Source: Parcubacteria group bacterium (GTDB lineage: Bacteria > Patescibacteriota > Minisyncoccia > Phycocordibacterales > UBA2163). From it: a stretch of 17,636 nt of DNA. This document shows positions 2,088 to 15,960 of this stretch, piece after piece (positions within the stretch are counted from its first letter, which is position 1; every line of letters begins with the position of its first letter). The notes below the pieces were generated by a model, which was not told where the DNA came from, did no database searches, and saw only the letters and a program-made list of their open reading frames with translations. The DNA is taken from assembly GCA_016784285.1 (NCBI GenBank), contig JADHUX010000003.1, positions 1-17,636 on the forward strand, read 5' to 3'. The position numbers and the translations under genes are program-made.

Positions 2088-3455
2088 ATGACAGAGCATC
2101 AACATAATCCGCCAGCTGGCGGAAAAACAAAAAGAAAAATCTTTTTTGAAGATGCTAAAAAGGTTTTAGATGGTAACTGGATAGACCTTGGTGAAGGCCG
2201 TGGCTACACTCGCCCTGCCGAGAGTATCTACCCACTTCAGTGGAGTTCTGACTCAGCGTTTGCAGCTTATGGCTACTCGCACTATGACGTACCCAAAGCG
2301 ATCACCGAGCTTCGTACACTTTTTGAAGGACAATGGTCAAACGGATTCCTACCTCATATAAACTTTCATAGAAAAGTCGACCACTACTTCCCTAACGAAG
2401 ATTTTTGGGACTCTAAAAATGTGACTGACAAATCCCCGAGAGATATAGGTACTTCTGGTATCTCTCAACCGCCTATTGTCGCTATGGCAGTATGGCATAT
2501 ATACAAACGCCTCAAGCTTGAAGGACAAGAAGGTGCGCAAGCATTCTTAGATGAGTTCTACCCTAAACTTTATAAACTGCATAAATATTTTCATGATTAT
2601 AGAGACCCAGAAAACTGGGGACTTATAACTATCTACCATCCATGGGAGTCTAGCTTTGATAATTCTCCACGTTGGGATAAAGCTCTAGAAGCTGTAATAC
2701 CAAAAGATTTACCAGAATATGAAAGAATGGACACGAGATATGTTCAAGAAGAAAATCGCCCAACTGACGAAAGTTATGACAAATATGTATATCTTGCACT
2801 TGAATTAAAAAAGAAAAATTATGACGACGATCTTATTTATAAAAACCACCCATTTAAAGTGAAAGATAAAGTTGTCTCTTCTATTCTTTATATGGCAGAT
2901 AAAAGACTTAAAAAAATGGCAGAGACTGCGGGTAAAGATATAAATGAAATTGAAAAATGGATGAAAATGTTTGAAGATAACTTAACGAGTAAGCTTTGGA
3001 ATACTGAAAATAAATTGTTCTATGACTTTGATTTAAATAGCAATGATTATATAAAAGTACAAACAGCAGGCGCACTTATACCGCTTGCTACAGGGATACT
3101 CTCTGAACAACAGATCCAAGACATTGTCGGGCATATGAATACTAGAGATTTCTGTGGAGATGGATCTTGCATTATAGATCTTGTACCGTCTAATAGTATT
3201 AATGAAGAAACATTTGATGACGACCACTACTGGCGAGGACCTATATGGATAAATGTAAATTGGTTTATGTGGAAAGGATTTAAAGAATATAATATGAAAT
3301 ACAGTGCAAAGAGTTTTAAAGAAAGAATCCTTAATCTGATAGAAAATGCAGGTTTCTGGGAGTACTACTCACCTCTCACAGGTAAAGGCACAGGTGCCAA
3401 AGACTTCTCTTGGACTGCAGCACTCGCTATCGATATATTATTTGATGATCTTTAA
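2088..3455 (+). CDS. Glycoside hydrolase, GH63/MGH1-like (alpha/alpha)6-barrel
   Basis: 455 aa, no signal peptide, presumably cytoplasmic. Motifs typical of the mannosylglycerate hydrolase/GH63-type barrel appear in order: QWSSDSAFAAYGY (about 51-63), HPWESSFDNSPRWD (about 184-197), YWRGPIWINVNWF (about 380-392), then WEYYSPLTGKGTGAKDFSWT near the C-terminus. In characterised relatives the Asp of the DNSPRWD region and the Glu of the EYYSP region are the proposed catalytic acid and base. The substrate (mannosyl- or glucosylglycerate, oligosaccharide or trehalose-like compound) cannot be told from sequence. The first 16 residues are non-conserved and contain PPAGG, encoded by a copy of a repeated palindrome. 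The gene is transcribed alone and ends at a bidirectional palindromic terminator facing trmD. Confidence 0.85.
   Translation: MTEHQHNPPAGGKTKRKIFFEDAKKVLDGNWIDLGEGRGYTRPAESIYPLQWSSDSAFAAYGYSHYDVPKAITELRTLFEGQWSNGFLPHINFHRKVDHYFPNEDFWDSKNVTDKSPRDIGTSGISQPPIVAMAVWHIYKRLKLEGQEGAQAFLDEFYPKLYKLHKYFHDYRDPENWGLITIYHPWESSFDNSPRWDKALEAVIPKDLPEYERMDTRYVQEENRPTDESYDKYVYLALELKKKNYDDDLIYKNHPFKVKDKVVSSILYMADKRLKKMAETAGKDINEIEKWMKMFEDNLTSKLWNTENKLFYDFDLNSNDYIKVQTAGALIPLATGILSEQQIQDIVGHMNTRDFCGDGSCIIDLVPSNSINEETFDDDHYWRGPIWINVNWFMWKGFKEYNMKYSAKSFKERILNLIENAGFWEYYSPLTGKGTGAKDFSWTAALAIDILFDDL
2108..2123. repeat. Palindromic repeat copy 1 (inside glycoside hydrolase gene)
   Basis: A perfect 16-bp palindrome, TCCGCCAGCTGGCGGA, preceded by A in all three copies. 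It is read in frame as part of N-P-P-A-G-G in the non-conserved N-terminal tail. Identical copies lie at 4280-4295 and 15220-15235. Confidence 0.95.
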
Positions 3456-3462
3456 AGACTAG

Positions 3463-3512
3463 ACCAAAAAGTGGCCATTGTATGCTATAGCATACAATGG
3501 CCACTTTTTGGT
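3463..3512. terminator. Perfect 50-bp palindrome, bidirectional terminator
   Basis: Two 25-bp arms with no spacer, perfectly complementary (centre between 3487 and 3488). The arms end in A5/T5 tracts (ACCAAAAAGTGGCC and GGCCACTTTTTGGT). The palindrome fills the 66-bp gap between the convergent ends of the glycoside hydrolase gene (3455) and trmD (3522), so it probably terminates both transcripts. Confidence 0.85.
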
Positions 3513-3521
3513 TGTTACTTT

Positions 3522-4157
3522 TTACTTCCCTGCGCGCCATTGGTCGATCTTTTTATGGTTGCCAGAGAGTAAAACTTTTGGTACTTTGTAGTTTTTACCT
3601 TTATATTTGAGGACTTCTGGGCGTGTATATACATCAGAGCTTGAAACCCTCTCTTCTTCTACTGAAGATTTATTACCAAGCACACCTTTAACCTGCCGTG
3701 CTACTGCATCTAAGATTATCATCGCTGGAAGTTCACCACCTGTAAGCACATATGGACCTACTGTTATTACTTCTGCTTTTAATATCTTTCTTACTCGTGC
3801 ATCTATACCCTCGTACCGCCCAGAGATTATGACCACGTCTTTATAGTTTTTAGAGAGCTTTTTAGCATAAGTGTTGTCAAACTGCTTACCGTTTGGTGCT
3901 AGGAAAATTATTTTGACCTTCTTCTTACGCCCTACTGCCTTCTCTACTGCTTTCAGTATAGCTTGTGCCTCTAGTACCATACCTGGCCCTCCGCCGTATG
4001 GCTTTTGGTCTACACGTTTATGTTTATCTTTAGTAAAGTCTCGAGGATTATAGAACTTGATTTTAATCTTCTTATCCTTCACTGCGCGTGCAATAATAGA
4101 CTCGTTTATATACGAGTCAAATGAATTTGGAAATAATGTAATAATGTGAAATGTCAT
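3522..4157 (-). CDS. trmD: tRNA (guanine-N1)-methyltransferase TrmD, short form
   Basis: 211 aa. TrmD methylates G37 of tRNAs next to the anticodon using SAM bound in a trefoil knot, which prevents +1 frameshifting. Visible motifs: GGGPGM (55-60), GRYEGIDARV (113-122), the knot segment GPYVLTGGELPAM (134-146), catalytic-type Asp 175 in SSSDVYTRPE, and VPKVLLSGNHKKIDQWR (192-208). The usual knot motif has D and S where this one has P and T (GPYVLTGG). The protein ends just after the IDQWR motif, about 30-45 residues shorter than common TrmDs, so the C-terminal helical tail is absent. It lies downstream of the KhpA-like gene, a remnant of the rpsP-khpA-rimM-trmD-rplS order with the other members missing. 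An SD-like GAGGAG lies 8 nt before the ATG. Confidence 0.95.
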   Translation of the reverse strand: MTFHIITLFPNSFDSYINESIIARAVKDKKIKIKFYNPRDFTKDKHKRVDQKPYGGGPGMVLEAQAILKAVEKAVGRKKKVKIIFLAPNGKQFDNTYAKKLSKNYKDVVIISGRYEGIDARVRKILKAEVITVGPYVLTGGELPAMIILDAVARQVKGVLGNKSSVEEERVSSSDVYTRPEVLKYKGKNYKVPKVLLSGNHKKIDQWRAGK

Positions 4158-4161
4158 GTTA

Positions 4162-4230
4162 TTCGCTCCTCGAGGTCAAACCTCCCTACTTCACTTCGTT
4201 GCGCGATGAGGAATGACCTCTTCCCGCGAA
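4162..4230 (-). promoter_or_regulatory. Nested inverted repeat in the trmD leader containing its SD
   Basis: Three nested complementary blocks: TTCGC (4162-4166) with GCGAA (4226-4230), GAGGTCA (4172-4178) with TGACCTC (4214-4220), and CCTC (4181-4184) with GAGG (4208-4211). They are separated by symmetric internal loops. In the minus-strand RNA the trmD SD GAGGAG (4166-4171) lies in the internal loop at the base of this structure. The arrangement could modulate trmD translation or be a palindromic element that landed in the leader. Function is not shown. Confidence 0.5.
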
Positions 4231-4272
4231 AAGAAAAAACTGTGATTTTAGAATATCACAGTTTTTTCTTTT
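4229..4272 (-). terminator. Intrinsic terminator of the KH-protein gene
   Basis: An 18-bp stem (4229-4246 with 4255-4272) around GAAAAAACTGTGAT and ATCACAGTTTTTTC with an 8-nt loop, giving a T-rich tail on both strands. It lies between the KH gene stop (4305) and the trmD start, so trmD expression would need read-through or its own promoter. Confidence 0.75.
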
Positions 4273-4279
4273 TTATCTA

Positions 4280-4295
4280 TCCGCCAGCTGGCGGA
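4280..4295. repeat. Palindromic repeat copy 2 (intergenic)
   Basis: TCCGCCAGCTGGCGGA, identical to the copies at 2108 and 15220. Here it extends to 18 bp (A...T) and lies 9 bp past the stop codon of the KH gene. It has no T-tract of its own. Confidence 0.95.
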
Positions 4296-4304
4296 TTAAA
4301 GTGA

Positions 4305-4625
4305 TTATACTTTTAAGTCTTCCATTGCTTCGTCAACACTTTTTTCTGATGTTGCTTCTGCTACCGGACCTCTTGTACTACCTTCTGGTTCATTAATCTT
4401 TAGATTAACTCGAGCGTTATTTTTCATACCAACTACTCGCAAGAGTGTTCGTATAGCTTTAGCTGTGTTACCTTGTCGTCCGATAATCTTTCCCATGTCT
4501 TCTGCGTTTATATCAAGTGTGAGAAGAACTCCCATCTCGTCAACAACTCTTTCAACTTTTACGTCGTCTGGGTTATCAACCAACTCCTTAATCATAAACT
4601 CTAAAAATGCTTGATCTTTTTCCAT
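4305..4625 (-). CDS. khpA: KH-domain RNA-binding protein, KhpA/YlqC family
   Basis: 106 aa. A single KH domain spans about residues 5-75 with the RNA-binding GxxG loop IIGRQGN (47-53), followed by KAIRTLLRVVG and a last strand ARVNLKINEP. The C-terminal about 28 residues (TRGPVAEATSEKSVDEAMED) are acidic, probably disordered, and longer than in typical KhpA (about 75-80 aa). KhpA binds RNA, often with KhpB, and affects cell size and RNA turnover in Gram-positives. The position upstream of trmD fits the conserved khpA neighbourhood. It has its own TTGACA promoter with an inverted repeat and no clear SD before the ATG. Confidence 0.88.
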   Translation of the reverse strand: MEKDQAFLEFMIKELVDNPDDVKVERVVDEMGVLLTLDINAEDMGKIIGRQGNTAKAIRTLLRVVGMKNNARVNLKINEPEGSTRGPVAEATSEKSVDEAMEDLKV

Positions 4626-4677
4626 ATTGTTAAATATCTTTACTTAACTTACTTAATAACAGAGCAGGAATTCGACT

Positions 4678-4718
4678 TTCTGCTATATATAATATACACG
4701 ATTATAGCAGAATGTCAA
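4678..4718 (-). promoter_or_regulatory. khpA promoter with flanking inverted repeat
   Basis: Minus strand TTGACA (4713-4718), a 16-bp spacer and TATATT (4691-4696). A perfect 10-bp inverted repeat, TTCTGCTATA (4678-4687) and TATAGCAGAA (4703-4712), brackets the -10 box. It is a good candidate operator. A leader of about 60 nt follows. Confidence 0.6.
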
Positions 4719-4722
4719 TAGA

Positions 4723-4760
4723 AAAAACCATAAAATATTACTAAATATTTTATGGTTTTT
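4723..4760. terminator. Bidirectional intrinsic terminator after the zinc-ribbon gene
   Basis: A perfect 17-bp AT-rich stem (AAAAACCATAAAATATT, 4723-4739, with 4744-4760) and a 4-nt loop, with A/T tracts at both ends. It lies 34 bp past the stop of the zinc-ribbon gene and directly upstream of the khpA promoter, so it insulates the two genes. Confidence 0.8.
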
Positions 4761-4793
4761 GTATTTTGTTTTAAATATAAAATTAAAACATCT

Positions 4794-5036
4794 TTACTCT
4801 ACAAGATGTAGGTATTCGACTGATTCAATCTTATCTTTTGTATGAACCTTATATTGAGTTCTTACGGTTCGCTCATTAACTGAATTACATCTGTCACATA
4901 TACAGTTATACGGACCTTTGCTTGGGAATTTCTCCCCACACTTAAGGCAAATTCTTTTCTGCTTTAATGATGTTAGTTTGTTTTCTGCTTCTTTAATTCC
5001 TGCTGGTGTTACTTTCTTTTCTTTTGTTAATGTCAT
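4794..5036 (-). CDS. Small zinc-ribbon protein, possible transcription regulator
   Basis: 80 aa. The central segment CLKCGEKF (C30, C33) and NCICDRC (C45, C47, C50) forms a zinc-ribbon/knuckle with a hairpin (SKGPYN) between the two halves. This layout is like small bacterial and phage proteins with C-x2-C...N-x-I-C-x2-C. The N-terminus is Lys-rich and helical; the C-terminus is a short basic beta-rich tail. The family is often DNA-associated, but no function is proved. It is monocistronic with a fully consensus promoter, a strong SD (GGGAGGTG, about 6 nt before ATG) and its own terminator. The promoter spacer holds a 12-bp palindrome, so autoregulation is plausible. It could be a mobile or phage-derived gene. 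Confidence 0.75.
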   Translation of the reverse strand: MTLTKEKKVTPAGIKEAENKLTSLKQKRICLKCGEKFPSKGPYNCICDRCNSVNERTVRTQYKVHTKDKIESVEYLHLVE

Positions 5037-5086
5037 TTTTACACCTCCCTATATAAGTTATTACTACCTATTTAAAATCTACTAAG

Positions 5087-5115
5087 ATTATAACAATATT
5101 GTTGATATCTGTCAA
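5087..5115 (-). promoter_or_regulatory. Consensus sigma70-type promoter with palindromic operator candidate
   Basis: Minus strand TTGACA (5110-5115), exactly 17 bp, then TATAAT (5087-5092): a perfect match to the consensus. The spacer contains the perfect 12-bp palindrome AACAATATTGTT (5092-5103). The predicted start is about 5080, giving a leader of about 44 nt with the SD at 5042-5049. Confidence 0.85.
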
Positions 5116-5121
5116 GCTAAT

Positions 5122-5508
5122 TTACTCTGTAGTCACTCCGTCAAAATGCTCTTCGTATTCGTCTGCTTTTGTCTTCTCCACTACGCCGTCTTTATGCTCT
5201 GGTGGCGAATAAACAGTATAAAGCTTTAGGTCCACACTACCTGTATTTATAAAATTATGCTTTGCACCAGCTGGCACTACTACTGCTATTCCGTCACTCA
5301 CCTCTCTTTCTACTCCGTCTAAAACAGCTTTACCGTTCCCCGCTTCAAACCGCAAGAACTGATCAAGCTCGTGGACTTCCTCGCCTATCTCGTCGCCTGG
5401 CTTTATGTTCATAAGTACAAGCTGACTGTTCTTAGCAGTATAAAGTACTCTACGATAATCTTCGTTTTCTAATGTTTCTTTTTCTATGTTTGTTGTGTAT
5501 CCTTTCAT
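5122..5508 (-). CDS. Cupin-domain protein
   Basis: 128 aa from the ATG at 5508. The longer in-frame start at 5544 would include the promoter and is rejected. Cupin motif 1 is GDEIGEEVHELDQFLRFEAG with the metal-binding His and an Asp/Gln pair. Motif 2 is VVPAGAKHNFINTG with the second His. The C-terminal tail is acidic (YEEHFDGVTTE). Stand-alone cupins of this type (MKGY-N-I-E start, LYTVYSPPEHKDG segment) are widespread small metal-binding beta-barrels of unknown substrate, possibly detoxifying or sugar/aldehyde-binding. It is transcribed alone. The -10 box ends 8 bp before the ATG, so it is predicted to be leaderless. Confidence 0.85.
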   Translation of the reverse strand: MKGYTTNIEKETLENEDYRRVLYTAKNSQLVLMNIKPGDEIGEEVHELDQFLRFEAGNGKAVLDGVEREVSDGIAVVVPAGAKHNFINTGSVDLKLYTVYSPPEHKDGVVEKTKADEYEEHFDGVTTE

Positions 5509-5515
5509 AGGATTA

Positions 5516-5544
5516 ATATTAGCAAAAATGTTGATTATTTCCAA
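5516..5544 (-). promoter_or_regulatory. Cupin gene promoter, leaderless
   Basis: Minus strand TTGGAA (5539-5544), 17 bp, TAATAT (5516-5521), with the ATG 8 bp after the -10 box. The -35 box is the end of one arm of the large inverted repeat at 5539-5570, so a protein or structure on that repeat would affect this promoter. Confidence 0.6.
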
Positions 5545-5570
5545 CGGCTCAACGAATTGAGCCGTTGGAA
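5539..5570. repeat. Perfect 14-bp inverted repeat with CGAA loop
   Basis: TTCCAACGGCTCAA, loop CGAA, TTGAGCCGTTGGAA. It lies upstream of both the cupin gene (minus) and the tRNA-Ala promoter (plus) and overlaps the cupin -35 box. There is only a weak T-rich tail, so it may be a palindromic element or operator rather than a terminator. Confidence 0.85.
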
Positions 5571-5573
5571 TGT

Positions 5574-5602
5574 TTGATTTTAATAAGAAAATATATTAGA
5601 AT
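5574..5602 (+). promoter_or_regulatory. Putative tRNA-Ala promoter
   Basis: TTGATT (5574-5579), 17-bp spacer, TAGAAT (5597-5602). The predicted start near 5609 leaves a pre-tRNA leader of about 90 nt that contains two palindromes. Confidence 0.5.
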
Positions 5603-5625
5603 ATTTGTTGTAATAAACGAGTTTT

Positions 5626-5705
5626 GGGCCCGCCCCGACACCAATATTGGTGTTGCTGAGCGCGGTGCCAAAACGGCACTTACACCAACATTGGTGTGGG
5701 GGCCC
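5626..5705 (+). repeat. Nested palindromes reaching into the tRNA-Ala 5' end
   Basis: ACACCAATATTGGTGT (5638-5653, perfect palindrome) and ACACCAACATTGGTGT (5682-5697, centre mismatch) flank GTGCC-AAAAC-GGCAC (5665-5679). GGGCCC at 5626-5631 recurs at 5700-5705, where it is the 5' strand of the tRNA acceptor stem. The whole block can form an imperfect long hairpin in the precursor RNA that would compete with acceptor-stem pairing. Confidence 0.75.
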
Positions 5706-5772
5706 GTAGCTCATCTGGTAGAGCGCCTCACTTGCACTGAGGAGGTGGCAGGTTCGAGTCCTGTCGGGTCCA
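5700..5772 (+). tRNA. tRNA-Ala (anticodon UGC)
   Basis: 73 nt, full cloverleaf by eye. The acceptor GGGCCCG pairs with CGGGTCC and includes the G3:U70 wobble that specifies alanine. D-stem GCTC/GAGC; anticodon stem CCTCA/TGAGG with loop CTTGCAC (UGC at 5733-5735); variable loop of 5 nt; T-arm GCAGG-TTCGAGT-CCTGT; discriminator A. CCA is not encoded (the next bases are CTT), so it must be added enzymatically. The decoding capacity covers GCN codons. Confidence 0.97.
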
Positions 5773-5773
5773 C
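5755..5773 (+). repeat. Direct repeat copy 1, in tRNA-Ala 3' end (possible att site)
   Basis: 19 bp covering part of the T-loop, the T-stem 3' strand, the acceptor 3' strand, the discriminator base and one flanking base. An identical copy lies at 5928-5946. tRNA 3' ends are the usual integration targets of tyrosine integrases. Confidence 0.85.
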
Positions 5774-5778
5774 TTGTG

Positions 5779-5817
5779 AAAATAAAACACTCTTTGAATT
5801 AAGGGTGTTTTATTTTT
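5779..5817 (+). terminator. Intrinsic terminator after tRNA-Ala
   Basis: A 16-bp stem, AAAATAAAACACTCTT (5779-5794) with 5801-5816, one G-U pair, 6-nt loop, ending in T5. It starts 7 nt after the tRNA. Confidence 0.8.
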
Positions 5818-5927
5818 GCACAGTAAATTCTTGGCAGGACTCGAAAGCCGGAAGAAAGGTGTCAGTGGCACGTTTCTGAGGCGGGGTCGCGAACACTTAT
5901 GAGTATAGCGAATTAGTGATTTGTAAC

Positions 5928-5946
5928 CGAGTCCTGTCGGGTCCAC
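5928..5946 (+). repeat. Direct repeat copy 2, tRNA-Ala 3'-end duplicate (att-like scar)
   Basis: Identical to 5755-5773, but the sequence upstream (5850-5927) does not fold as a tRNA: there is no T-stem 5' strand or acceptor 5' strand. It is therefore a 3'-end fragment, not a second gene. The 154 bp between the copies hold the terminator and about 110 bp without an ORF. Consistent with an attachment-site duplication left by a lost element. Confidence 0.8.
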
Positions 5947-5951
5947 AGATA

Positions 5952-5980
5952 TTGACAGGTATCTACATGTATGTTATTTT
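5952..5980 (+). promoter_or_regulatory. Promoter for the Cys-rich small gene
   Basis: TTGACA (5952-5957), 17 bp, TATTTT (5975-5980), starting 5 bp after the second tRNA repeat. Transcription toward 6145 gives an AT-rich leader of about 158 nt (5987-6144), in which I see no conserved structure. Confidence 0.5.
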
Positions 5981-6144
5981 AATTGTGGAAGTTTTTAATT
6001 ATAATTCCATATAAATTAATTCTTGAGAAAGGGAAATGTCATAGAAAAATAGAAACAGAAAGAATATGCAGTATTTACAAATGAAAGGAAAAAGTATCGT
6101 ATAAAAATTCTAGTTTCATTTAAATATTTTAAGAGGAGATTCTT

Positions 6145-6297
6145 ATGTATATTTGTAAATCTTGTGAGAAAAAAGAAAAAGAAGATGAAAGTTGCACCTA
6201 TGTTCATTTTGGTGGGTCATATGGGAATTGTGAACTATGTGGCAAAACTGCTCTTTGTGTTGATTGTAATTGCCACAAGCAATTAGAACAAACTTAA
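6145..6297 (+). CDS. 50-aa Cys-rich (zinc-finger-like) small protein
   Basis: An ATG at 6145 preceded by AGAGGAG (8 nt spacing) opens a 50-codon frame ending TAA at 6297. There are eight cysteines: C4-x2-C7 (MYICKSCEKKE), C17, C29-x2-C32 (GNCELCGK), C38-x2-C41 and C43 followed by H44 (CVDCNCH). The paired CxxC motifs suggest two zinc-binding knuckles. The middle (YVHFGGSYGN) is a likely beta-turn. No family is recognised. The gene has its own TTGACA promoter and a canonical terminator 12 bp downstream, and lies just outside the att-like duplication, so it may be part of a former mobile element. Coding status is supported by SD, Cys pattern and terminator, but the gene is short. Confidence 0.7.
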   Translation: MYICKSCEKKEKEDESCTYVHFGGSYGNCELCGKTALCVDCNCHKQLEQT

Positions 6298-6309
6298 ACA
6301 TTTAACATC

Positions 6310-6346
6310 CCCTTCCGAAAGTACTTTACTTCGGAAGGGTTTTTTT
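6310..6346 (+). terminator. Intrinsic terminator of the Cys-rich gene
   Basis: CCCTTCCGA (6310-6318) pairs with TCGGAAGGG (6331-6339), followed by T7. An extra GTA/TAC pairing extends the stem. It lies between the convergent ends of the Cys-rich gene and ddl. Confidence 0.9.
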
Positions 6347-7312: not shown

Positions 7313-7323
7313 ATTATTTTTCT

Positions 7324-7329
7324 ATTATA
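7324..7329 (-). promoter_or_regulatory. ddl -10 box
   Basis: A perfect TATAAT on the minus strand, 11 bp before the ddl ATG. No convincing -35 box at 16-18 bp (closest AGTTTG). The predicted transcript has an extremely short leader without SD. Confidence 0.45.
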
Positions 7330-7380
7330 ACATACACGACACAAAACAAACTGTGGAAAGCTAAGAACACTTTTAACGAA

Positions 7381-7483
7381 ACATAGTCTTACTAAAAAGC
7401 CTTGCGCAGTACTGTATCAACAGGACGAGCAGAGCAAAATTTGTCGCTACAAATTTATGTGTGCTTTTTAGGAAGAGCTATGT
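7381..7483. other. Structured intergenic element between uvrC and ddl
   Basis: The 190-bp uvrC-ddl gap carries a long-range inverted repeat: 7381-7400 pairs with 7463-7483 (19 of 20 positions, one mismatch and one bulge). It encloses two smaller hairpins, CTGT-ATCA-ACAG (7412-7423) and AAATTTGT-CGCT-ACAAATTT (7437-7456). It has no open reading frame of note and no T-tract that would make it a simple terminator. It could be a structured RNA, a palindromic mobile remnant, or an mRNA-end structure for uvrC. Confidence 0.55.
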
Positions 7484-7502
7484 GAGTAAAAAGTACTAGT
7501 TT

Positions 7503-8798
7503 CTATCTTTTTCTAAAGTTAAAAAGAGATTTCTTACGATGAAAAGATATAGCAAACCTATGCGCTTCTGCATTTGCTGTTAAAATCTCTTTTTCATACT
7601 TATCTCGCACTACTTTATCAGCTATAAGGCCTTTTGGCTTATGCTTGTCGTCTTTTACTACTCCTGCTACCGCTATCTTATAACCATATTCCTCCAAGAC
7701 TCTCTGAGCAGTATTTACCTGCGCTTGCCCACCGTCTACTACTATAAGGTTCGGACTCCTCCATTCATCATGCTTGAGTCTACGCCTTAAGACTTCTTCA
7801 AGTGAGCCTACGTCATTACCAGAGACTTCCTCTGAGACATTGAACTTCCTATAGTCATTCTTCTTTACCCAGCTATTCTCAACCACTGTCATCACACCCA
7901 CTGTATTAGAGCCTCCCATATGCGCGATGTCATATGCTTCTATCCTAAATGCCCTTGTATCAACTCCAGAAAAGGGTAGCCCTTTTTGTTGTTGAAAAGG
8001 GCTACCCTTTTCTGTTTCTGTGTTAGGTGCTTTTAATTCTTCTTTTATAAGAGACACATCTTGAATATGCTTTAACCCAAATATTGTTTTCTTTATAGCT
8101 CCTGCTTTTTCAAATTTTTTCTTTTTAGCATAGTCTTTCATTTCTTGCTCTAGAGTTTTTATTAGAGAAGATTTTTTACCTTCAAAGAAGAGTTTTATGT
8201 GGTTTATCGTCCTACTGTATTCTACCTTTGACACCACACCCGAGCACACACCTGGACAAAGTTCTATCTGCTTGTTGAAGCATGGTTTTCTTTCAGAGAC
8301 TCCATCATATGGAGTACATACATCTCTAAACGGAAACAACTTACGTACTATCTTCATCGCATCTTTAAACACTCCGCCATATGGAAATGGCCCAAATATG
8401 TGCTTTATATCTCTTGAAGAAAATTTACTTTCAAGATCGCTTCCCCGTACTACAAGCACACGTGGGAATTCTTCATTGGTTATAACTAAATAATTAAAAC
8501 TTTTATCGTCTTTTTCTTTTGTATTATATCTTGGTTGGAATTTCTTTATTAAATTTGCCTCCATTATAAGAGCTTCTAGTACTGAGTCTGTTTTTATAAA
8601 ATCTACAAAGTTTGCTTCTTCTACCATCTTCTGGATAAGCTTACCTCGTGACTCTACCACACCTTTATTAAAATAACTTCGTACTCTGTCTTTTAAAGAA
8701 GTGGCTTTGCCCACGTATAAAATGCGCGTATCCTTTTGAAAAAGATACACTCCTGCAGAATCTAGTATTTTGATCTTTTTTAAATCATTAATATCCAT
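7503..8798 (-). CDS. uvrC: UvrC nuclease subunit, form lacking the C-terminal HhH domain
   Basis: 431 aa from the ATG at 8798 (a GTG at 8813 is less likely). UvrC makes both incisions in nucleotide excision repair. The N-terminal GIY-YIG domain has GVYLFQKD, YVGKA and a downstream Glu; the UVR motif region (EQEMKDYAKKKKFEKAGAIK) binds UvrB. The RNase H-like 5' nuclease keeps its acidic residues in EAYDIAHMGG and LIVVDGGQAQVN, and the His in EAHRFAISFHR. The protein stops 11 residues after that helix, so the usual tandem helix-hairpin-helix DNA-binding domain is missing (typical UvrC about 590-610 aa). No HhH coding remains in any frame downstream. Between the UVR and nuclease domains lies an extra segment (KGSPFQQQKGLPF) encoded by a 19-bp inverted repeat. 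Confidence 0.95.
   Translation of the reverse strand: MDINDLKKIKILDSAGVYLFQKDTRILYVGKATSLKDRVRSYFNKGVVESRGKLIQKMVEEANFVDFIKTDSVLEALIMEANLIKKFQPRYNTKEKDDKSFNYLVITNEEFPRVLVVRGSDLESKFSSRDIKHIFGPFPYGGVFKDAMKIVRKLFPFRDVCTPYDGVSERKPCFNKQIELCPGVCSGVVSKVEYSRTINHIKLFFEGKKSSLIKTLEQEMKDYAKKKKFEKAGAIKKTIFGLKHIQDVSLIKEELKAPNTETEKGSPFQQQKGLPFSGVDTRAFRIEAYDIAHMGGSNTVGVMTVVENSWVKKNDYRKFNVSEEVSGNDVGSLEEVLRRRLKHDEWRSPNLIVVDGGQAQVNTAQRVLEEYGYKIAVAGVVKDDKHKPKGLIADKVVRDKYEKEILTANAEAHRFAISFHRKKSLFNFRKR
7968..8013. repeat. Perfect 19-bp inverted repeat inside uvrC
   Basis: AGAAAAGGGTAGCCCTTTT (7968-7986) pairs with 7995-8013 around an 8-nt loop (TGTTGTTG). It is translated in frame as KGSPF-QQQ-KGLPF at about residue 262-277, between the UVR motif and the RNase H-like domain, where UvrC proteins vary. 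Confidence 0.9.
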
Positions 8799-8834
8799 AA
8801 ATAAATTAAACACTTTCTACAATAAAAAATCCAT

Positions 8835-9056: not shown

Positions 9057-9078
9057 GGGGTCAATTTCTTTCCCTCTT

Positions 9079-9465: not shown

Positions 9466-9540
9466 CTTAAGATCCTCCTAAGAATGTCAAAATAACTATA
9501 CTAAAAGAACAATAGCAAAAACTAGACTATAAATCAAAAT

Positions 9541-12129
9541 TTATTTTTTTAATACTTTCTTCAGATACTTGGCTGTATATGACTTCTTGGATTCTGCTAC
9601 TTGCTCTGGAGTACCTTTTGCGACTATTTGTCCACCACCTTCCCCTCCTTCTGGACCGATGTCTATGACATAGTCTGCTGATTTTATAATATCCATACTA
9701 TGCTCTATCACTACGACAGTATTACCTCTCGCTACGAGTGACTGAAGTATCTCTATGAGCTTTTTCACATCTTCATAATGAAGTCCTATCGTCGGCTCGT
9801 CTAATAAGTAGATAGTCTTCTGCAAGTGTGGTCGATAAAGCTCTGAGGAGATCTTCACTCTCTGTGCTTCCCCACCTGAGAGAGTAGTAGCAGACTGCCC
9901 AAGCTCTAAGTAACCTAGCCCTACTTCATTAAGGGTTTTGAGTCTGTCATAAATCGCTGGAATGTCTTCAAAGAATGTAAGCGCTTCCTCTACTGTCATA
10001 CTAAGTACACCGTAAATGTTTTTATGTTTATACTTTACTTCTAAAGTTTCCTTCATAAATCTTTTGCCTCCACAGACGTCGCACTTTACATACACTGTAG
10101 GTAAGAAGTGCATCTCTACTGCTATCGTTCCATTACCTTGGCATGTCTCACATCTTCCACCCTTTACGTTAAAGGAGAATCTACTTGCCTTCCAGCCACG
10201 CGCTCGTGCTTCAGTAGATGAAGCAAACAGATCTCTTATAAAGGTAAACGCTCCAGTATAAGTAGCTGGATTTGAGCGTGGAGTACGCCCTATGGGTGAC
10301 TGATCTATAAGGATAGAGCGACCTAAATACTCTGTGCCAGTGAAGCTTTTAGCATTGTATACTTCTGCGCTTCTGTACTTTCTCTCAAACCTTGCTCTTA
10401 GATTCTTATAAAGTAATTCGTATAAGAATGTAGATTTACCAGAACCAGACACACCTGTAACTGTCACAAGTTTACCAAGAGGAATATCTATATTCATACC
10501 TTTAATATTAAACTTCTTTCCTCCTCTTATCTTTATAGCGCCTTTGTTTTTGTCTCGTCTTTTCTCTGGAAGCTCTATTTTCTTTTCTTCACGTAAATAA
10601 GCAAGTGTGAGAGACTGGCTTTTATTTGTCTTCGCAGTCAGTAATTCATCTAGATCACCTGAGACAACAACCTCTCCACCATGCACTCCAGCTCCGACAC
10701 CAAGGTCTACAATATAGTCAGAAGAATATATCGTATCTTCGTCATGCTCTACTACTATTATGGTATTACCTAGATCTCTTAGGTTAAGAAGGGTCTTTAT
10801 AAGCCTGTCATTGTCGCGCTGATGCAAGCCTATAGTTGGCTCATCAAGAACGTAGAGCGCACCTACAAGCCCAGAGCCAAGCTGTGAAGCCAAGCGTATC
10901 CTTTGTGCTTCTCCACCTGAAAGAGTATTGGCACGACGATCAAGCGTAAGATAATCAATACCTACGTCTATCATAAACTGTAATCTATTCGTTATTTCTT
11001 TCAAAACAACTTTAGCGATCTCTTGTTCTTTTTTTGTAAGTTTAAGTTTACTAAAAAATTCTTGTGCATTCTTTATGGACATACTTGTAAGGTCTACTAT
11101 ATTTGTCTTATCTCCTAAATAAACAGACAATGCTTCTTTGCGCAAGCGAGCGCCGTTACATGTATCGCACGCTTCAGATCCAAAAAAGTATTTAGTACCC
11201 AAACCATTACAAGCTTCACATGCTCCGTATGGTGAGTTGAATGAAAATAGTCTCGGCTCAACTTCTGGGAAAGAGAAGCCGTCATAAGGACACATAAACT
11301 TAGCAGAGATTATTCGTTCTTCTCCGTTTGGCTCTTCTATTTTTAGCAAACCGTCAGACTCTTCAAGAGCTTTTTCTATTGCTTCACTAAGTCGCTCAAG
11401 TGCGTTTTCTTTATCGTCTTTAAATTCACTTAAGAATATCTCATCTACAAGCACATCTATGTCATGCTTTTTAGTCTTTGATAGCACTATTTGCTCACGT
11501 AGGTTTTTAACCTTACCGTCTATCTTTACTTTGCTATATCCTTTACCTAGCAAATCATATAGTAGTTGGTAGTATTCACCCTTTCTACCTACTACTACAG
11601 GTGAGTATATTTTAAGCTTTAAATCATTAATATCTACACCCATTATTTTTTTACTAGACTTTTTAAGGTCAGTATTTTTTATTGTCTTTAATACTGTATT
11701 TAGTATTTCTTCATTTGAAAGTTTTTTGATCTCTCTGTCACACTTAAGACAATGCGGTCTCCCCACGCGCGCATAAAGGATTCGCATGTAGTCGTATATT
11801 TCTGTAATAGTCGCTACGGTTGAGCGTGGGTTGTTAGACCTGCTTTTCTGGTCAATAGAGATCGCAGGAGAGAGCCCTATAATCTCGTCTACATCGGGCT
11901 TTTGCATCTGACGTAAGAACTGCCGAGCATATGCAGAAAGAGACTCTACATATCTTCTCTGCCCTTCTGCAAAGATAGTGTCAAACGCAAGAGAAGACTT
12001 ACCAGAACCAGAAAGCCCAGTGAAGACGACCATTTTGTTGCGTGGCATCTCTACTGTTACATTCTTAAGGTTATGAGTTCTGGCACCTTTTACTATTATT
12101 TTGTCTTCTTTTGGTTTTTCTTTTGACAT
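9541..12129 (-). CDS. uvrA: UvrA excision repair ATPase lacking the insertion domain
   Basis: 862 aa (family about 940). UvrA dimers find DNA lesions and load UvrB. Visible: Walker [10 protein letters not shown] (38-45), zinc Cys C127/C130 (CLKC), the UvrB-binding domain (about 130-255), a C280...C304/C307 finger, two LSGGEAQR signature motifs, Walker [11 protein letters not shown], the C-terminal zinc module CETCQGNG...CDVCGGKR, and two DEPTIGLH Walker B motifs. Between GLG (311) and [10 protein letters not shown] (321-330) only about 10 residues remain, where E. coli has about 110: the DNA-contacting insertion domain is absent. The first finger reads CPYD, with Asp in place of the second Cys. 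No SD close to the ATG; the leader contains a C5/G5 hairpin. Confidence 0.97.
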
Positions 12130-12142
12130 AATACGTATAAAA

Positions 12143-12166
12143 CCCCCTCCTCTTGTCCATAGGGGG
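12143..12166 (-). promoter_or_regulatory. Hairpin in the uvrA leader
   Basis: CCCCCT (12143-12148) and AGGGGG (12161-12166) with a 12-nt loop; longer imperfect pairing is possible. On the minus strand it is followed by TTTTAT and contains a GGAGG that is about 16 nt from the ATG, too far for a normal SD. It may act as an attenuator or protect the 5' end. Confidence 0.4.
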
Positions 12167-12192
12167 AGTAGTTAATTAATTTAAGTACACAT

Positions 12193-12221
12193 ATTATACA
12201 TTAAAAATAAATTTTTGCAAA
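12193..12221 (-). promoter_or_regulatory. Putative uvrA promoter
   Basis: Minus strand TTTGCA (12216-12221), 17 bp, perfect TATAAT (12193-12198), giving a start near 12186 and a leader of about 57 nt. No LexA-type box is visible around it. Confidence 0.55.
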
Positions 12222-12258
12222 AAGAAACCCCATAGCACTTATCGTACTATGGAGCTTT
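12221..12258 (-). terminator. Intrinsic terminator of the 100-aa anchored protein gene
   Basis: CCATAG (12230-12235) with CTATGG (12247-12252), outer AAAG/CTTT pairing, followed on the minus strand by GGGTTTCTTTTTGC. It overlaps the -35 region of the uvrA promoter, so the two transcripts are separated. Confidence 0.65.
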
Positions 12259-12280
12259 AATCTTTTTCTTACTCTTATTA

Positions 12281-12583
12281 TTAGTTAAGAGCAATTTTAA
12301 TATTCTTTATACATGGACCAAATTCATCTGCACAAAGATATGCATCTGGATTCTCTTTCTGTATTTTTGCCAAAAGTTTTTTATTCTCTTCATGCTGTGC
12401 ATTGCTTACAGCAAATCCTTTGACATATACAGCTTTGACAACCTTCTTAGTCTTAGCATCTCCTTTATTAGCTAATAATAAAAGTGCTGCAGCTGTTAAG
12501 ACAAATACAGCGATCAAAATGTAAGCAATCTTTTTACCAAAAATTTCTCTCAATCCCATACCTCTCTGTTTTCCAGTTAACAT
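12281..12583 (-). CDS. Membrane-anchored secreted small protein, unknown function
   Basis: 100 aa from the ATG at 12583, chosen because GGAG lies 9 nt upstream; earlier in-frame ATGs (12598, 12634) lack an SD. The basic N-terminus (GKQRGMGLREIFGKK) precedes one hydrophobic helix, IAYILIAVFVLTAAALLLLA, about residues 19-38, which gives an N-in, C-out anchor. The outer domain of about 60 residues is helical (AQHEENKKLLAKIQKENPDA) with two cysteines near the end (YLCADEFGPCIKN) that could form a disulphide. No family is recognised. It sits between uvrB and uvrA but has its own promoter and terminator, so functional linkage to repair is not indicated. Confidence 0.7.
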   Translation of the reverse strand: MLTGKQRGMGLREIFGKKIAYILIAVFVLTAAALLLLANKGDAKTKKVVKAVYVKGFAVSNAQHEENKKLLAKIQKENPDAYLCADEFGPCIKNIKIALN

Positions 12584-12651
12584 AATTACTGTCTCCATTG
12601 AAAAATTAATTAAATAAAAATTAATACAATACAACAGTGGGTTTCTACATA

Positions 12652-12680
12652 TAGAATAACATATTCTACAGTTTTGTCAA
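12652..12680 (-). promoter_or_regulatory. Promoter with palindromic operator candidate
   Basis: Minus strand TTGACA (12675-12680), 16 bp, TATTCT (12653-12658). A perfect 7+3+7 inverted repeat, TAGAATA-ACA-TATTCTA (12652-12668), covers the -10 box. Predicted leader about 60 nt. Confidence 0.55.
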
Positions 12681-12710
12681 TAGCTAAATACCGTTTTATA
12701 ACTTAATTTT

Positions 12711-12736
12711 GATTAACCCAGTCGGCTGGGTTAATC
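12711..12736. terminator. Hairpin overlapping the uvrB stop codon
   Basis: GATTAACCCAG (12711-12721), loop TCGG, CTGGGTTAATC (12726-12736). The T7 tract is on the plus-strand side, so in the uvrB direction it is a stem without a T-tail. It may protect the mRNA 3' end, block antisense transcription, or be another palindromic element. Confidence 0.6.
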
Positions 12737-14750
12737 ACTTTTTTTGAGTTAATACCTTTATTTCGTCTCGTATTATTGCTGCAGTTTCAAAGTCTAGTAT
12801 CTTTACTGCGCCCTCCATCGCCTTTTCTTTCTGTGCTATGAGTTTTTTAGGGTTTTTCTTATAAAGCTCTTTGTCTATAGTAAGTAGTGTCGCTACGGAT
12901 TGCTCGTGTTCTGTACGCATCTGCTCTGTAATATCTTTTATAGCTTTTATAATAGTCTTTGGAGTAATGTTGTGCTTTTTATTGTATGCAATTTGTAACT
13001 TTCTTCTTCTGTTTGTCTCACTCATTGCTTTCTCCATTGAGTTAGTGATCTTGTCGGCATATAAAATCACTCGCCCTTCTACATTACGCGCAGCTCTGCC
13101 TATGGTCTGTATCAAGCTAGTCTCTGAACGCAAGAACCCTTCTTTGTCTGCGTCTAGTATGCCAATTAAAACCACTTCAGGTAAATCTAAACCTTCACGA
13201 AGTAAGTTTACTCCTACAAGCACATCGAACTTACCTTTTCTAAACTCTGTAAGTATCTCTATTCTGTCTATTGTCTTTACATCACTATGCAGATATTCTG
13301 CTTTGATTTTCTTCTCTTTTAAATACTCTGAAAGATCCTCCGCCATCTTTTTAGTAAGTGTCGTTGCTATTACCCTACCTCCCTTTTTCACAACTTTTTC
13401 TGTCTCTTCTATAAAGTCTTGCACTTGCCCTTTGTACACCGAGGTCCGACCTCGGTGTTTGGATTCAACTACTGGTCGTACATCTATCTCTGGATCAAGG
13501 AGCCCAGTCGGTCGTATGACTTGCTCTACTATGTTTTTACTATTCTCACCCTCATATACTCCAGGTGTAGCAGATGTATAGATACTCTGCCCTACTCTCT
13601 CTTCAAACTCTTCAAAGTTAAGAGGTCTGTTGTCCACAGCAGACGGCAAGCGAAAACCAAACTCTACTAAAGTCTTCTTCCTTGACCTGTCTCCTGCGTA
13701 CATACCACCAAGCTGTGGGACCGTCACGTGTGACTCATCTATAACTGTAAGAAAATCTTTGGGGAAATATGAAAGTAAAGTATACGGTGGTTCGCCTTCT
13801 TCACGTCCGTCAAAATGCCGAGAGTAGTTTTCTATACCGTTTGTATACCCTATCTCTTTTATAAGAGCTAAGTCATAGTTAGTTCTACGCTTTAATCTTT
13901 CATGTTCAAGTACTTTGCCTGCACGCTTGAAGTTTGCAAGTTGTTTGGTAAGCTCTGCTTTTATATCTGCTGTGGCTCGCTTCTTTTCGTCTTCTGGAGT
14001 TACGAAATGTTTTGCTGGGAATAAGAAGAAAGATTTAATATTTGCCTCTAAAATCATCCTGGATATCGCGTCTATTTTATTTATCTCAGTTATAGTACTT
14101 CCCTCTAGATCTATTCTGTAAATCACCTTTTCATTTACTGGCATTATCTCTACTACATTGCCCATTGCTCTGAACTTCCCCGGTGTAAGATCTGCATTAG
14201 TACGCTCAAAGTAAATCCCGATAAGCTTACGTATAAAATCTGCACGTGTGATCTTCATCCCAGTTTCTATCTTCAAGTTAACCTTTTCATATTCTTCTGG
14301 ATTTCCCAAACCATAAATAGCAGAGACCGATGCGACTATTATCACATCTTTACGTGTAAGTAGAGCTTGTGTCGCGGCATGCCTTAACCTGTCTATCTCT
14401 TCATTGATCTGTGTTTCCTTCTCTATATAAGTATCAGTCACTGGCAAGTACGCCTCTGGCTGATAGTAGTCATAATAGGATACAAAGTAATGCACTGCAG
14501 CGTCTGGGAAAAACTCTCTGTATTCTTGCGCTAACTGTGCTGCGAGAGTTTTATTGTGCGCTAGCACCAATGTGGGTTTCTGAACCTTTTCTATAACATT
14601 AGCAACGGTAAAAGTTTTACCAGATCCTGTAACACCCAAAAGGGTCTGGTGCTTTTCACCTTCCTTTAGGCCCTCAACCAAGCTTTTGATAGCCCCCGGC
14701 TGATCCCCCGCTGGCTCAAATTCTGATTTTAATTTAAATTTATTTTGCAT
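12735..14750 (-). CDS. uvrB: UvrB excision repair helicase-like subunit
   Basis: 671 aa. UvrB receives damaged DNA from UvrA, verifies the lesion with its beta-hairpin and recruits UvrC. Motifs: Walker A LLGVTGSGKTFTVANV (about 38-53), beta-hairpin YYDYYQPEAYLPVTDTYIEK, DESHVTVPQLGGMY, YTSATPG, GVNLLREGLDLPEVVLIG, QTIGRAARN, and the C-terminal UVR motif (KEKAMEGAVKILDFETAAII). The usual VRP-x-KGQVDDL junction is interrupted here by about 12 extra residues (VESKHRGRTSVY), encoded by a palindrome. The ATG overlaps the tgt stop region by 11 bp, so translation is coupled to tgt; the gene ends in TGA inside a hairpin. All catalytic motifs are intact. Confidence 0.97.
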   Translation of the reverse strand: MQNKFKLKSEFEPAGDQPGAIKSLVEGLKEGEKHQTLLGVTGSGKTFTVANVIEKVQKPTLVLAHNKTLAAQLAQEYREFFPDAAVHYFVSYYDYYQPEAYLPVTDTYIEKETQINEEIDRLRHAATQALLTRKDVIIVASVSAIYGLGNPEEYEKVNLKIETGMKITRADFIRKLIGIYFERTNADLTPGKFRAMGNVVEIMPVNEKVIYRIDLEGSTITEINKIDAISRMILEANIKSFFLFPAKHFVTPEDEKKRATADIKAELTKQLANFKRAGKVLEHERLKRRTNYDLALIKEIGYTNGIENYSRHFDGREEGEPPYTLLSYFPKDFLTVIDESHVTVPQLGGMYAGDRSRKKTLVEFGFRLPSAVDNRPLNFEEFEERVGQSIYTSATPGVYEGENSKNIVEQVIRPTGLLDPEIDVRPVVESKHRGRTSVYKGQVQDFIEETEKVVKKGGRVIATTLTKKMAEDLSEYLKEKKIKAEYLHSDVKTIDRIEILTEFRKGKFDVLVGVNLLREGLDLPEVVLIGILDADKEGFLRSETSLIQTIGRAARNVEGRVILYADKITNSMEKAMSETNRRRKLQIAYNKKHNITPKTIIKAIKDITEQMRTEHEQSVATLLTIDKELYKKNPKKLIAQKEKAMEGAVKILDFETAAIIRDEIKVLTQKK
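13436..13458. repeat. Perfect 10-bp inverted repeat inside uvrB
   Basis: ACACCGAGGT, loop CCG, ACCTCGGTGT. It is translated as H-R-G-R-T-S-V at about residue 431-438, in the middle of a segment that most UvrB proteins lack. Confidence 0.85.
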
Positions 14751-15960
14751 AATAACTCTTTAAAAACTCCTCTTTAAACTCATCAAAGTTTTCATCTAGG
14801 ATTGATTGACGAATATTTTTTACAAGATTTACGATGAAGTATAAGTTATGGATTGATGCAAGTGTTGACGCGAGCATCTCTTTTGCTCTGAACAAATGTG
14901 CGAGATACGCTTTAGTGTAGTTCTTACAAGTATAACACTCGCAATCTTCTTCTATTTTTGAAAAATCTTTTGTGTATTTTGCGTTTTCTATATTTATCCT
15001 GCCTTCTTTAGTGTAGAGCGTACCGTTACGTGCTATCCTCGTCGGTGATACACAATCAAACATATCTACGCCATTTTCTACACCTATAAATAAATCAATT
15101 GGTTCCCCTATGCCGAGCAAATGCCGTGGCTTACTTTCTGGTAGTATTTTGTTCACCCACGCTAGCGCCTCGTCTAAATCTTCTTTAGAGAATGACCCAC
15201 CAATACCGAAGCCGTCAAATCCGCCAGCTGGCGGACATAACTCTGCCATGAATTTTGCACTTTCTTTACGCAAATCCTCAAACCGCCCACCTTGCACTAT
15301 GCCAAACAGCGCCTGTTTATTTCTACTTGGGTGCCTTGCCACCAAGTGATTATGGTGATCTAGAGAACGTTTTGCCCATCTGTGCGTACGCTCCATCGCC
15401 TCCTTTTGGTACTCATGCTCAGCAGTCGGTGAAGTGCATTCGTCAAATGCGAATATTATATCAGCGCCTATATTGCTCTGAATCTCTATTGATTTTTCTG
15501 GAGTGAAGTAATGCTTACTTCCATCTATATGCGACTGAAACTCCACACCCTCTTCATCTATCTTTGCCAACTTACCATGCTCAGAATTGTTCAAAGTTGA
15601 ACTTTGAACAAAGTTATCTTTTTTGCTAAATTTGTTTTCTCCTGTTCCGAATCCTGCGCCAAGTGAGAATACTTGGAAGCCACCTGAGTCTGTAACTGTA
15701 GGACCTTTCCAGTTCATAAACTTTCCTATTCCGCCTCCAGCCTTGACCACATCATCGCCCGGCTGTAAGTACAAATGATAAGTATTACCAAGTACTGCTT
15801 GTGCACCAAGACTATTAACCTGCTCTGGAGTGAGAGACTTCACAGTAGCTTTAGTACCAACCACAGTAAAAGACGGCGTTTCTATAACACCGTTTGGGGT
15901 AGTAATCTTCCCTGCTCTACCGAGCTTATTTTTTAATTTTTTTTCTATCTCAAATCGCAT
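14740..15960 (-). CDS. tgt: tRNA-guanine transglycosylase (bacterial queuine/preQ1 type)
   Basis: 406 aa. Tgt swaps G34 for preQ1 in GUN-anticodon tRNAs. Catalytic D91 is in VTDSGGFQVFSLG; the nucleophile D302 is in DMFDCVSPTR; GIVQGG (220-225) binds the base; the zinc site is C340, C342, C345 and H371 (CECYTC...SIHNLYF). Family length is about 370-380 aa; the excess comes from a segment of about 29 residues after SLGA (103-131) and a CPPAGG block (242-247) before FDGFGIGG. Both are encoded by inverted repeats. No queuosine synthesis gene is nearby, so preQ1 is made elsewhere or salvaged. A terminator-like hairpin lies only 20 bp upstream of the ATG. uvrB follows with an 11-bp overlap. Confidence 0.97.
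   Translation of the reverse strand: MRFEIEKKLKNKLGRAGKITTPNGVIETPSFTVVGTKATVKSLTPEQVNSLGAQAVLGNTYHLYLQPGDDVVKAGGGIGKFMNWKGPTVTDSGGFQVFSLGAGFGTGENKFSKKDNFVQSSTLNNSEHGKLAKIDEEGVEFQSHIDGSKHYFTPEKSIEIQSNIGADIIFAFDECTSPTAEHEYQKEAMERTHRWAKRSLDHHNHLVARHPSRNKQALFGIVQGGRFEDLRKESAKFMAELCPPAGGFDGFGIGGSFSKEDLDEALAWVNKILPESKPRHLLGIGEPIDLFIGVENGVDMFDCVSPTRIARNGTLYTKEGRINIENAKYTKDFSKIEEDCECYTCKNYTKAYLAHLFRAKEMLASTLASIHNLYFIVNLVKNIRQSILDENFDEFKEEFLKSYYAK
15220..15235. repeat. Palindromic repeat copy 3 (inside tgt)
   Basis: TCCGCCAGCTGGCGGA, identical to 2108 and 4280, read as C-P-P-A-G-G between AKFMAEL and FDGFGIGG. Relative to other Tgt proteins as I recall them, six residues (18 bp) look inserted. Confidence 0.95.
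15587..15611. repeat. Perfect 11-bp inverted repeat inside tgt
   Basis: TTGTTCAAAGT, loop TGA, ACTTTGAACAA. It encodes N-F-V-Q-S-S-T-L-N-N, about residues 116-125, within the segment of about 29 residues that other Tgt proteins mostly lack. Confidence 0.85.

Follow-up and report, generated by a model that had tools for sequence, protein, structure and literature searches.

A mobile 16-bp palindrome inserted in frame into conserved genes of a Parcubacteria group bacterium, and its link to GIY-YIG genes lodged in tRNA genes

Results

Three copies of a short palindrome, TCCGCCAGCTGGCGGA, lie in a 17,636-nt stretch of DNA (hereafter the window) from a Parcubacteria group bacterium, contig JADHUX010000003.1 of assembly GCA_016784285.1. 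Based on the excess of copies in the genome, on empty sites in congeneric relatives and on the same pattern in a genome of another family, we conclude that TCCGCCAGCTGGCGGA is almost certainly a mobile palindrome of 16 bp that is compatible with coding sequence. Its insertion is lineage-specific, replaces a few base pairs and is biased in reading frame. Outside protein genes, the same hairpin is strongly linked to GIY-YIG genes that are lodged in tRNA genes.

The repeat unit in the window

A preliminary description of the window had reported a 17-bp palindromic repeat in three copies, too many for chance. The 17-mer ATCCGCCAGCTGGCGGA does occur at 2107-2123, 4279-4295 and 15219-15235, and none of 200 dinucleotide shuffles gave as many matches as were found. 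The 17-mer, however, is not itself symmetric: the perfect palindrome is the 16-bp TCCGCCAGCTGGCGGA, and the A preceding it in ATCCGCCAGCTGGCGGA is merely a flanking base in common. TCCGCCAGCTGGCGGA can form a hairpin with a 6-bp stem and a 4-nt loop, which was the fold obtained when it was treated as single-stranded DNA (-5.9 kcal/mol), and none of its frames contains a stop codon. As had been described, the two coding copies both encode PPAGG and lie on opposite strands, in a glycoside hydrolase (+) and in Tgt (-), and the remaining copy is intergenic (Table 1).

All three sites are empty in relatives. In G004, the one relative whose hydrolase N-terminus aligned, the protein reads MTEHQLD-KAKK and the palindrome is absent, so that the filled allele has a net gain of 15 bp. 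The palindrome is likewise absent from Tgt of all three aligned relatives (G004, G003 and G001), again at a net difference of +15 bp, and PPAGG is not found in the two solved Tgt chains for which alignments were inspected. The insertion in Tgt therefore comprises five codons and not the six residues CPPAGG that had been proposed, while the view that PPAGG is not ancestral in either protein is upheld by these congeneric sequences. The intergenic copy is missing from the syntenic spacer of G004, where the net difference is about +18/19 and the poly-A length also differs.

Copies across the genome

The genome to which the window belongs (G000) comprises 376,478 bases in 43 contigs and is 70% complete. 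It contains 27 exact copies of TCCGCCAGCTGGCGGA and 12 with one or two mismatches, 39 altogether, and no copy of the reversed word that served as a control. Considering that order-2 and order-3 Markov models predict about 4e-6 to 1.4e-5 copies, the exact copies exceed expectation more than one million-fold. The GC content is 75% in TCCGCCAGCTGGCGGA and 36% in the genome. No longer flank common to the G000 copies was found and the unit stays 16 bp; in gene orientation, AA directly precedes the palindrome in 21 of 34 coding copies. All 33 pairs of TCCGCC...GGCGGA that are at most 24 nt apart in G000 have a 4-nt loop. A restriction-site reading was rejected, as CAGCTG was observed 102 times vs 70 expected and this hexamer is not avoided.

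Copies within open reading frames (ORFs) make up 33 of the 39, near the rough coding share of 87%, and 30 of these 33 are read in the PPAGG frame. When one copy with three mismatches is included, the coding frames are PPAGG in 31 of 34, RQLAD in two and SASWR in one; some of the copies in the PPAGG frame encode PPTGG, PSADG or similar. In five other families, 37 copies within ORFs are divided into 32 PPAGG, five SASWR and no RQLAD, and a further 21 copies are outside any ORF of at least 120 codons; this tally covered 58 of 59 places and took the longest ORF of at least 120 codons, of which a few may be spurious. Compared with an expectation of one-third, the excess of the PPAGG frame has a P of 3e-12 in G000 and of 3e-11 in the five families. 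The host genes in G000, named by reading of their sequences, are mostly housekeeping genes: LeuS, HolA, PolA (twice), MurD, SecA (twice), SecD, SecF, MiaA, GltX, GyrA, GyrB, TopA, DnaE, DnaG, DnaB, DnaK (twice), PheT, CysS, Tgt and SMC, together with ribosomal proteins and others.

On G000 contig C23 at 10190-10321 (L040), RplD and RplW have extra short stretches, STSSGQA and SAEASAKAE, near PPAGG; that of RplW is not in G004, and such stretches resemble other small coding inserts. In lysine-rich proteins the palindrome is repeated, with KKKKNPPAGGKKK found three times in 60-bp steps in G038 (L430, 1479-1614) and twice, 75 bp apart, in G291 (L440, 1448-1538). By eye, the palindrome appeared at L160, L168, L150 and L155, in several genomes, to cap a longer inverted repeat that is specific to the locus.

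Empty sites in relatives

We compared the 34 coding sites of G000 with five congeners, which were represented by stretches and search loci (the chimeric query took in 11 of 24 segments). Twenty-nine sites aligned with a congener and 18 of these were clearly empty in at least one, nine of them on the support of at least two relatives and nine on that of one; one of the 18 is a 3-mismatch copy. The filled allele is longer by 12 bp at 14 sites and by 15 bp at four (Tgt, the hydrolase, GltX and a metallo-beta-lactamase-fold protein), that is, the palindrome replaces about 4 bp or 1 bp. In LeuS, for example, G004 reads TCT AAA AAA GAA where G000 reads TCT AAT CCG CCA GCT GGC GGA GAA, and the 16 palindrome bases replace four. 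Outside the clear tally, six sites are filled in a relative and clearly empty in none (PolA twice, C29_4105, DnaE, CysS and a metallo-beta-lactamase-fold gene on C24), five gave ambiguous alignments (RplD, RplW, RelA, the first DnaK site and SMC) and five did not align (the second DnaK site, RpsQ, GyrA, a cysteine desulfurase and DnaB). Target-site duplications of 5-8 bp were found at none of the 39 G000 sites, and those of 4, 3 and 2 bp at two, two and one of the 39, respectively. Together with the genome count, the empty congeneric sites support the earlier suggestion of a coding-compatible mobile palindrome of the Rickettsia type, but shorter.

The converse case was also observed, in that some copies of G005 are not in G000. 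Two of these are at net +12 and others at more, with one N-terminal site at net +18 and one linker site at about +24, and the TopA copy of G005 is located where G000 has 13 extra codons. In another family, G061 contains 20 copies and five sampled congeners contain none. A query that took in 8 of 12 sites of G061 gave five clear sites in comparison with the nearest relative, three at +12 and two at +15, with XerD, RluD, L373 and L377 outside the clear tally; at HolA and UvrC-b, relatives beyond the nearest one vary in loop length.

GIY-YIG genes lodged in tRNA genes

Among the non-coding copies in G038, G022 and G291 we found one arrangement, in which the palindrome lies within a broken 5' part of tRNA-Asn and is followed by a small GIY-YIG ORF and then by an intact tRNA-Asn. 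The linked gene has about 85 codons, and the domain matched PF01541 at E 3e-14 in the two genes scanned. When 297 genomes of the order were searched with this protein, 10 such genes were found in nine genomes, and directly upstream of each of the 10 lies a tRNA fragment that the palindrome or a variant of it interrupts. The gene is also present in 20 of 379 genomes of a phylum sample, which with the order set gives 30 distinct genes in 28 genomes. A palindrome with a 6-bp stem and a 4-nt loop lies within 100 bp upstream of 28 of the 30 genes, the exceptions being those of G564 and G358; the same test was positive in 1.4% of shuffles and in 5.7% of stretches drawn at random from these loci, the true ones included. 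Y16, G18, R26, H30 and E65 are invariant in all 30 linked proteins, and we take these to be the catalytic residues.

ARAGORN detected a tRNA 3' of the ORF in 23 of 30 cases (17 Asn, 5 Lys and 1 Pro), and the stop codon of the GIY-YIG gene is often a TAG belonging to this tRNA. In tRNA-Asn, the hairpin replaces about three D-loop bases (AAT in G038), which is again a small replacement. Variant stems beside the genes (TCCGTC, CCCGTC, CCCGCC, TCCGGC and TCTGCC) are compensated in the other arm in all cases, and four of the five loop variants with this stem in G000 (AACT, GGCT, AGCC and AGTT, not AATT) recur beside GIY-YIG genes. We regard the hairpin as very probably a part of the tRNA-lodged GIY-YIG element. 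At L449 (G048), the tRNA-Asn downstream of the GIY-YIG gene appeared by eye to be interrupted by an intron-like insert.

Distribution of the palindrome and of the GIY-YIG gene

TCCGCCAGCTGGCGGA is patchy within the order, as it is present in 44 of 297 genomes and absent from three congeners of G000. At least 116 stretches from named genomes contain an 18-mer form. Among the 80 matches listed, which were sorted by reading of record names, about 54 are candidate-phyla (Patescibacteria-type) records and about 11 are Bacteroidota, and the rest are Elusimicrobia, Cloacimonadota, Fermentibacteria, one Acetatifactor and other bacteria. Together with genome size and gene content, these carriers suggest a patescibacterial origin of the window. 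At least two unlinked exact copies are present in 6 of 9 genomes with the GIY-YIG gene vs 24 of 288 without it (P 4e-5, with both counts taken as the same 297-genome draw and kinship uncorrected, the nine genomes belonging to eight families). Within the genus of the window no GIY-YIG gene of this kind was detected, nor was one found by hidden Markov model scans of 116 genome_contigs stretches, and a plasmid scan with the GIY-YIG protein gave no matches. Among viral contigs, 49 stretches carry the 16-mer, and the viral scan gave six weak matches to the GIY-YIG protein.

Origin and movement of the dispersed copies

The explanation that we favour, by a narrow measure of confidence, is that the dispersed 16-mers are non-autonomous copies of the hairpin of the GIY-YIG element and that its nuclease moves them. 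TCCGCCAGCTGGCGGA would then be a non-autonomous mobile hairpin that replaces a few target bases, mostly one to four, without target-site duplication, and coding copies would survive almost only when the net gain is divisible by three and reading is in the PPAGG frame. The source element would consist of a broken 5' tRNA fragment with the hairpin, the GIY-YIG gene and usually the same tRNA in intact form. The most likely course is that the nuclease recognises the hairpin and cuts, which would allow the hairpin to be copied to new places, in parallel with the RAYT transposases thought to move repetitive extragenic palindromes (REPs). Dispersed copies could outlive the nuclease gene, and the lineage of the window would once have had this gene or would still have it, perhaps unassembled. 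Taken by itself, the idea that this nuclease moves the dispersed copies has, in our view, about an even chance of being right. We propose only tentatively, at slightly less than an even chance, that these elements are a new class, in which a GIY-YIG gene lodged in a tRNA gene mobilises a 16-nt hairpin in trans in many bacterial lineages.

Several observations weigh against this explanation. G005, which is 99% complete and has nine copies, showed no gene of the GIY-YIG subfamily at E 1e-15, and G061 (98% complete, 20 copies) is not among the nine genomes with a GIY-YIG match. The gene is also absent from the assembled 70% of G000, a weak test in that the 25 tRNA genes there do not include a tRNA-Asn; two tRNA-Lys and one tRNA-Pro are present in G000 without such a GIY-YIG gene. 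G254 carries the gene, yet the 452 kb searched of about 600 kb yielded a single further copy, too few for a test of the cognate variant. The size of the target loss is variable at three non-coding sites, where the filled allele is longer by about 12, about 13 and about 18/19 bp; the exact base loss is thus not fixed, and selection on the frame probably picks 12 and 15. While both sides are changed at three of six pairs in the stem and none of 500 shuffles reached the covariation score, the 11 distinct hairpins were chosen by their perfect stem, so that the 100% pairing is partly by construction, and the G605 variant with a longer stem was left out of the count. Lastly, the shared copies are conserved at the DNA level, which is not predicted for a decaying selfish insert.

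This conservation bears on the first alternative, that TCCGCCAGCTGGCGGA is a functional DNA site, such as an uptake signal or a protein-binding site, that arises through insertion or recombination and then persists because it is selected for or preferentially taken up. Copies would in that case stay exact and be located in core genes able to recombine; we consider this a minor, though appreciable, possibility. G000 shares copies with G004 in PolA (twice), SecA and C29_4105, and with G005 in DnaE, CysS, a metallo-beta-lactamase-fold gene, DnaK and a decayed SecA copy. Over nine pairs at eight sites, 1 of 43 four-fold sites is changed within the element vs 1028 of 2010 in the same genes (binomial P 2e-12, or 5e-5 with the rate halved to allow for G000 copies having been picked by consensus match), which fits a functional site, as does the predominance of housekeeping hosts. 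On the other hand, a density of about one exact copy per 14 kb and the patchy occurrence described above speak against such a site, the copies were gained by 12- or 15-bp insertions and not by substitutions, and a functional site does not predict the link to GIY-YIG and tRNA genes. The conservation of shared copies is unexpected for a neutral insert and may reflect either a DNA-level role or repeated re-insertion.

It is improbable that TCCGCCAGCTGGCGGA is a REP moved by a RAYT (Y1/HUH) transposase that was unassembled or lost, even though G000 has six Y1_Tnp genes and RAYT-REP pairs exist in this group. A lone RAYT-like gene was found among the 116 genome_contigs and 49 viral stretches, in one of the former, and the 16-mer lies 357 bp downstream of it; this gene, however, has a different palindrome at both its ends. 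Of the 22 Y1 genes examined (six in G000 and 16 spread over six further genomes), not one has TCCGCCAGCTGGCGGA immediately beside it, where the flanks in G000 were examined up to 220-260 bp on each side and three were cut by contig ends. Instead, most RAYT-like genes here and in related genomes have other palindromes of similar size at their ends (none was seen for L189, and the L177 gene was outside the comparison), and the nearest matches to TCCGCCAGCTGGCGGA, two with 2 mismatches at the L182 locus of G038, lie farther out than the gene's own flanking palindrome. A RAYT as the direct partner was rejected on these grounds. The tags GTAG and CGTC occur within 8 bp on either side of two of 39 copies each, compared with 7.4% and 4.0% at random, and with neither a tag nor a flanked Y1 gene TCCGCCAGCTGGCGGA is not a GTAG/CGTC REP.

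We give similarly little credence to passive filling, in which a hairpin fragment, for example from the tRNA-GIY locus, was taken up during error-prone repair of breaks, without any machinery devoted to its movement. A variable small loss of target without duplication fits end-joining, but the inserts are almost identical 16-mers that begin and end alike (27 of the 39 in G000 are exact), and expansions of the same sequence occurred in several families. An ancestral PPAGG protein motif or chance, the alternative named in the preliminary description, has a negligible probability in view of the 18 empty sites, an expected count of about 1e-5 and the existence of intergenic and tRNA copies.

Comparison with known repeats

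As a very small hairpin, TCCGCCAGCTGGCGGA is similar to the small dispersed repeats (SDR) of Nostoc, which are very small cyanobacterial hairpin repeats of 21-27 nt thought to be mobile and for which we know of no linked nuclease. Some homing endonuclease genes bring along a copy of the end of their host gene and thereby restore it. The GIY-YIG gene resembles these in lying within a gene whose 5' part is duplicated while an intact copy remains; it differs in that the target is a tRNA gene and in that the broken copy is marked by a 16-nt hairpin, which is also dispersed alone. In contrast with insertion sequences and miniature inverted-repeat transposable elements, TCCGCCAGCTGGCGGA has no target-site duplication.

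Rickettsia palindromic elements (RPEs), according to the excerpted account in PMC2229807, are palindromic repeats of 105-146 bp, specific to Rickettsia, that are found in frame in conserved protein genes and also in RNA genes. TCCGCCAGCTGGCGGA is like an RPE in its in-frame insertion into conserved genes at sites not filled in orthologs (18 of 29 clearly empty), and unlike an RPE in its unit of 16 bp, its presence in many non-Rickettsia lineages and its link to GIY-YIG genes. REPs are described in excerpts of PMC3733652 as short palindromes in many copies, mostly intergenic and in some cases intragenic and in replication or repair genes; those of the GTAG/CGTC type are 20-40 bp long and tagged, and CGTC REPs lack a flanking transposase. 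TCCGCCAGCTGGCGGA is also a short palindrome in many copies and, like CGTC REPs, has no flanking transposase, but it is untagged and mostly intragenic, and the linked gene is GIY-YIG rather than HUH. A literature search found no account of such an element, and a text search for the exact 16-mer in 5.39 million papers gave no match.

No mobile element known to us would be as small as a 16-bp unit that preserves the reading frame by net changes of +12 or +15 and whose peptide is tolerated, and the unit adds residues to PolA, DnaE, SecA, GyrB and DnaK, among others. The spread of REPs lacking a transposase is presented as an open question in the same excerpts (PMC3733652), and the tie to a compact GIY-YIG nuclease provides a concrete candidate mechanism, open to testing, for the spread of orphan palindromic repeats.

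Other features and palindromes

The copies in the window and the genes associated with them are listed in Table 1. In an Rfam scan of the window, tRNA-Ala was the sole match.

Table 1. Palindrome copies in the window and their host or neighbouring genes
Feature	Position	Strand	Description
Palindrome copy 1	2108..2123		In frame, N-terminal tail of glycoside hydrolase, MTEHQHN-PPAGG-KTK
Palindrome copy 2	4280..4295		Intergenic, 9 bp past stop of KhpA/KhpB-like gene, ahead of terminator-like hairpin
Palindrome copy 3	15220..15235		In frame in tgt, before FDGFGIGG: AELC-PPAGG-FDG
MGH1-like glycoside hydrolase (host of copy 1)	2088..3455	+	PF22422, E 5.4e-93
KhpA/KhpB-like KH-domain protein (upstream of copy 2)	4305..4625	-	PF13083, E 7.1e-22
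tgt, queuine tRNA-ribosyltransferase (host of copy 3)	14740..15960	-	PF01702, E 8.9e-144

Palindromes of other sequence were also seen. In uvrC (window 7967-8014, minus strand), two in-frame inverted copies of a AAAAGGGTAGCCCTTTT-type palindrome encode EKGSPFQQQKGLPFS in UvrC, and a AAAAGGGTAGCCCTTTT-type core is also found upstream of and inside the RAYT-like gene on G000 contig C6. By eye, the RAYT-like genes on contigs C35, C30, C6 and C33 (L030, L031, L028 and L029) each adjoin a palindrome of their own, on both flanks in C35 and C30 and on one flank in C6 and C33, and this palindrome also occurs in frame inside the gene. In the spacer upstream of trmD (window about 4172-4240), some 70 bp are not in G004 and resemble a word family frequent in the genome, GGAAAGACCTTTTCCCGCG. 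A perfect 50-bp palindrome at 3463-3512 of the window, between convergent genes, is probably a bidirectional terminator, and G000 contains several palindromes of this long and perfect kind, in which cores such as AACCCAGTCGACTGGGTT and GTCGCTCGCGAGCGAC recur.

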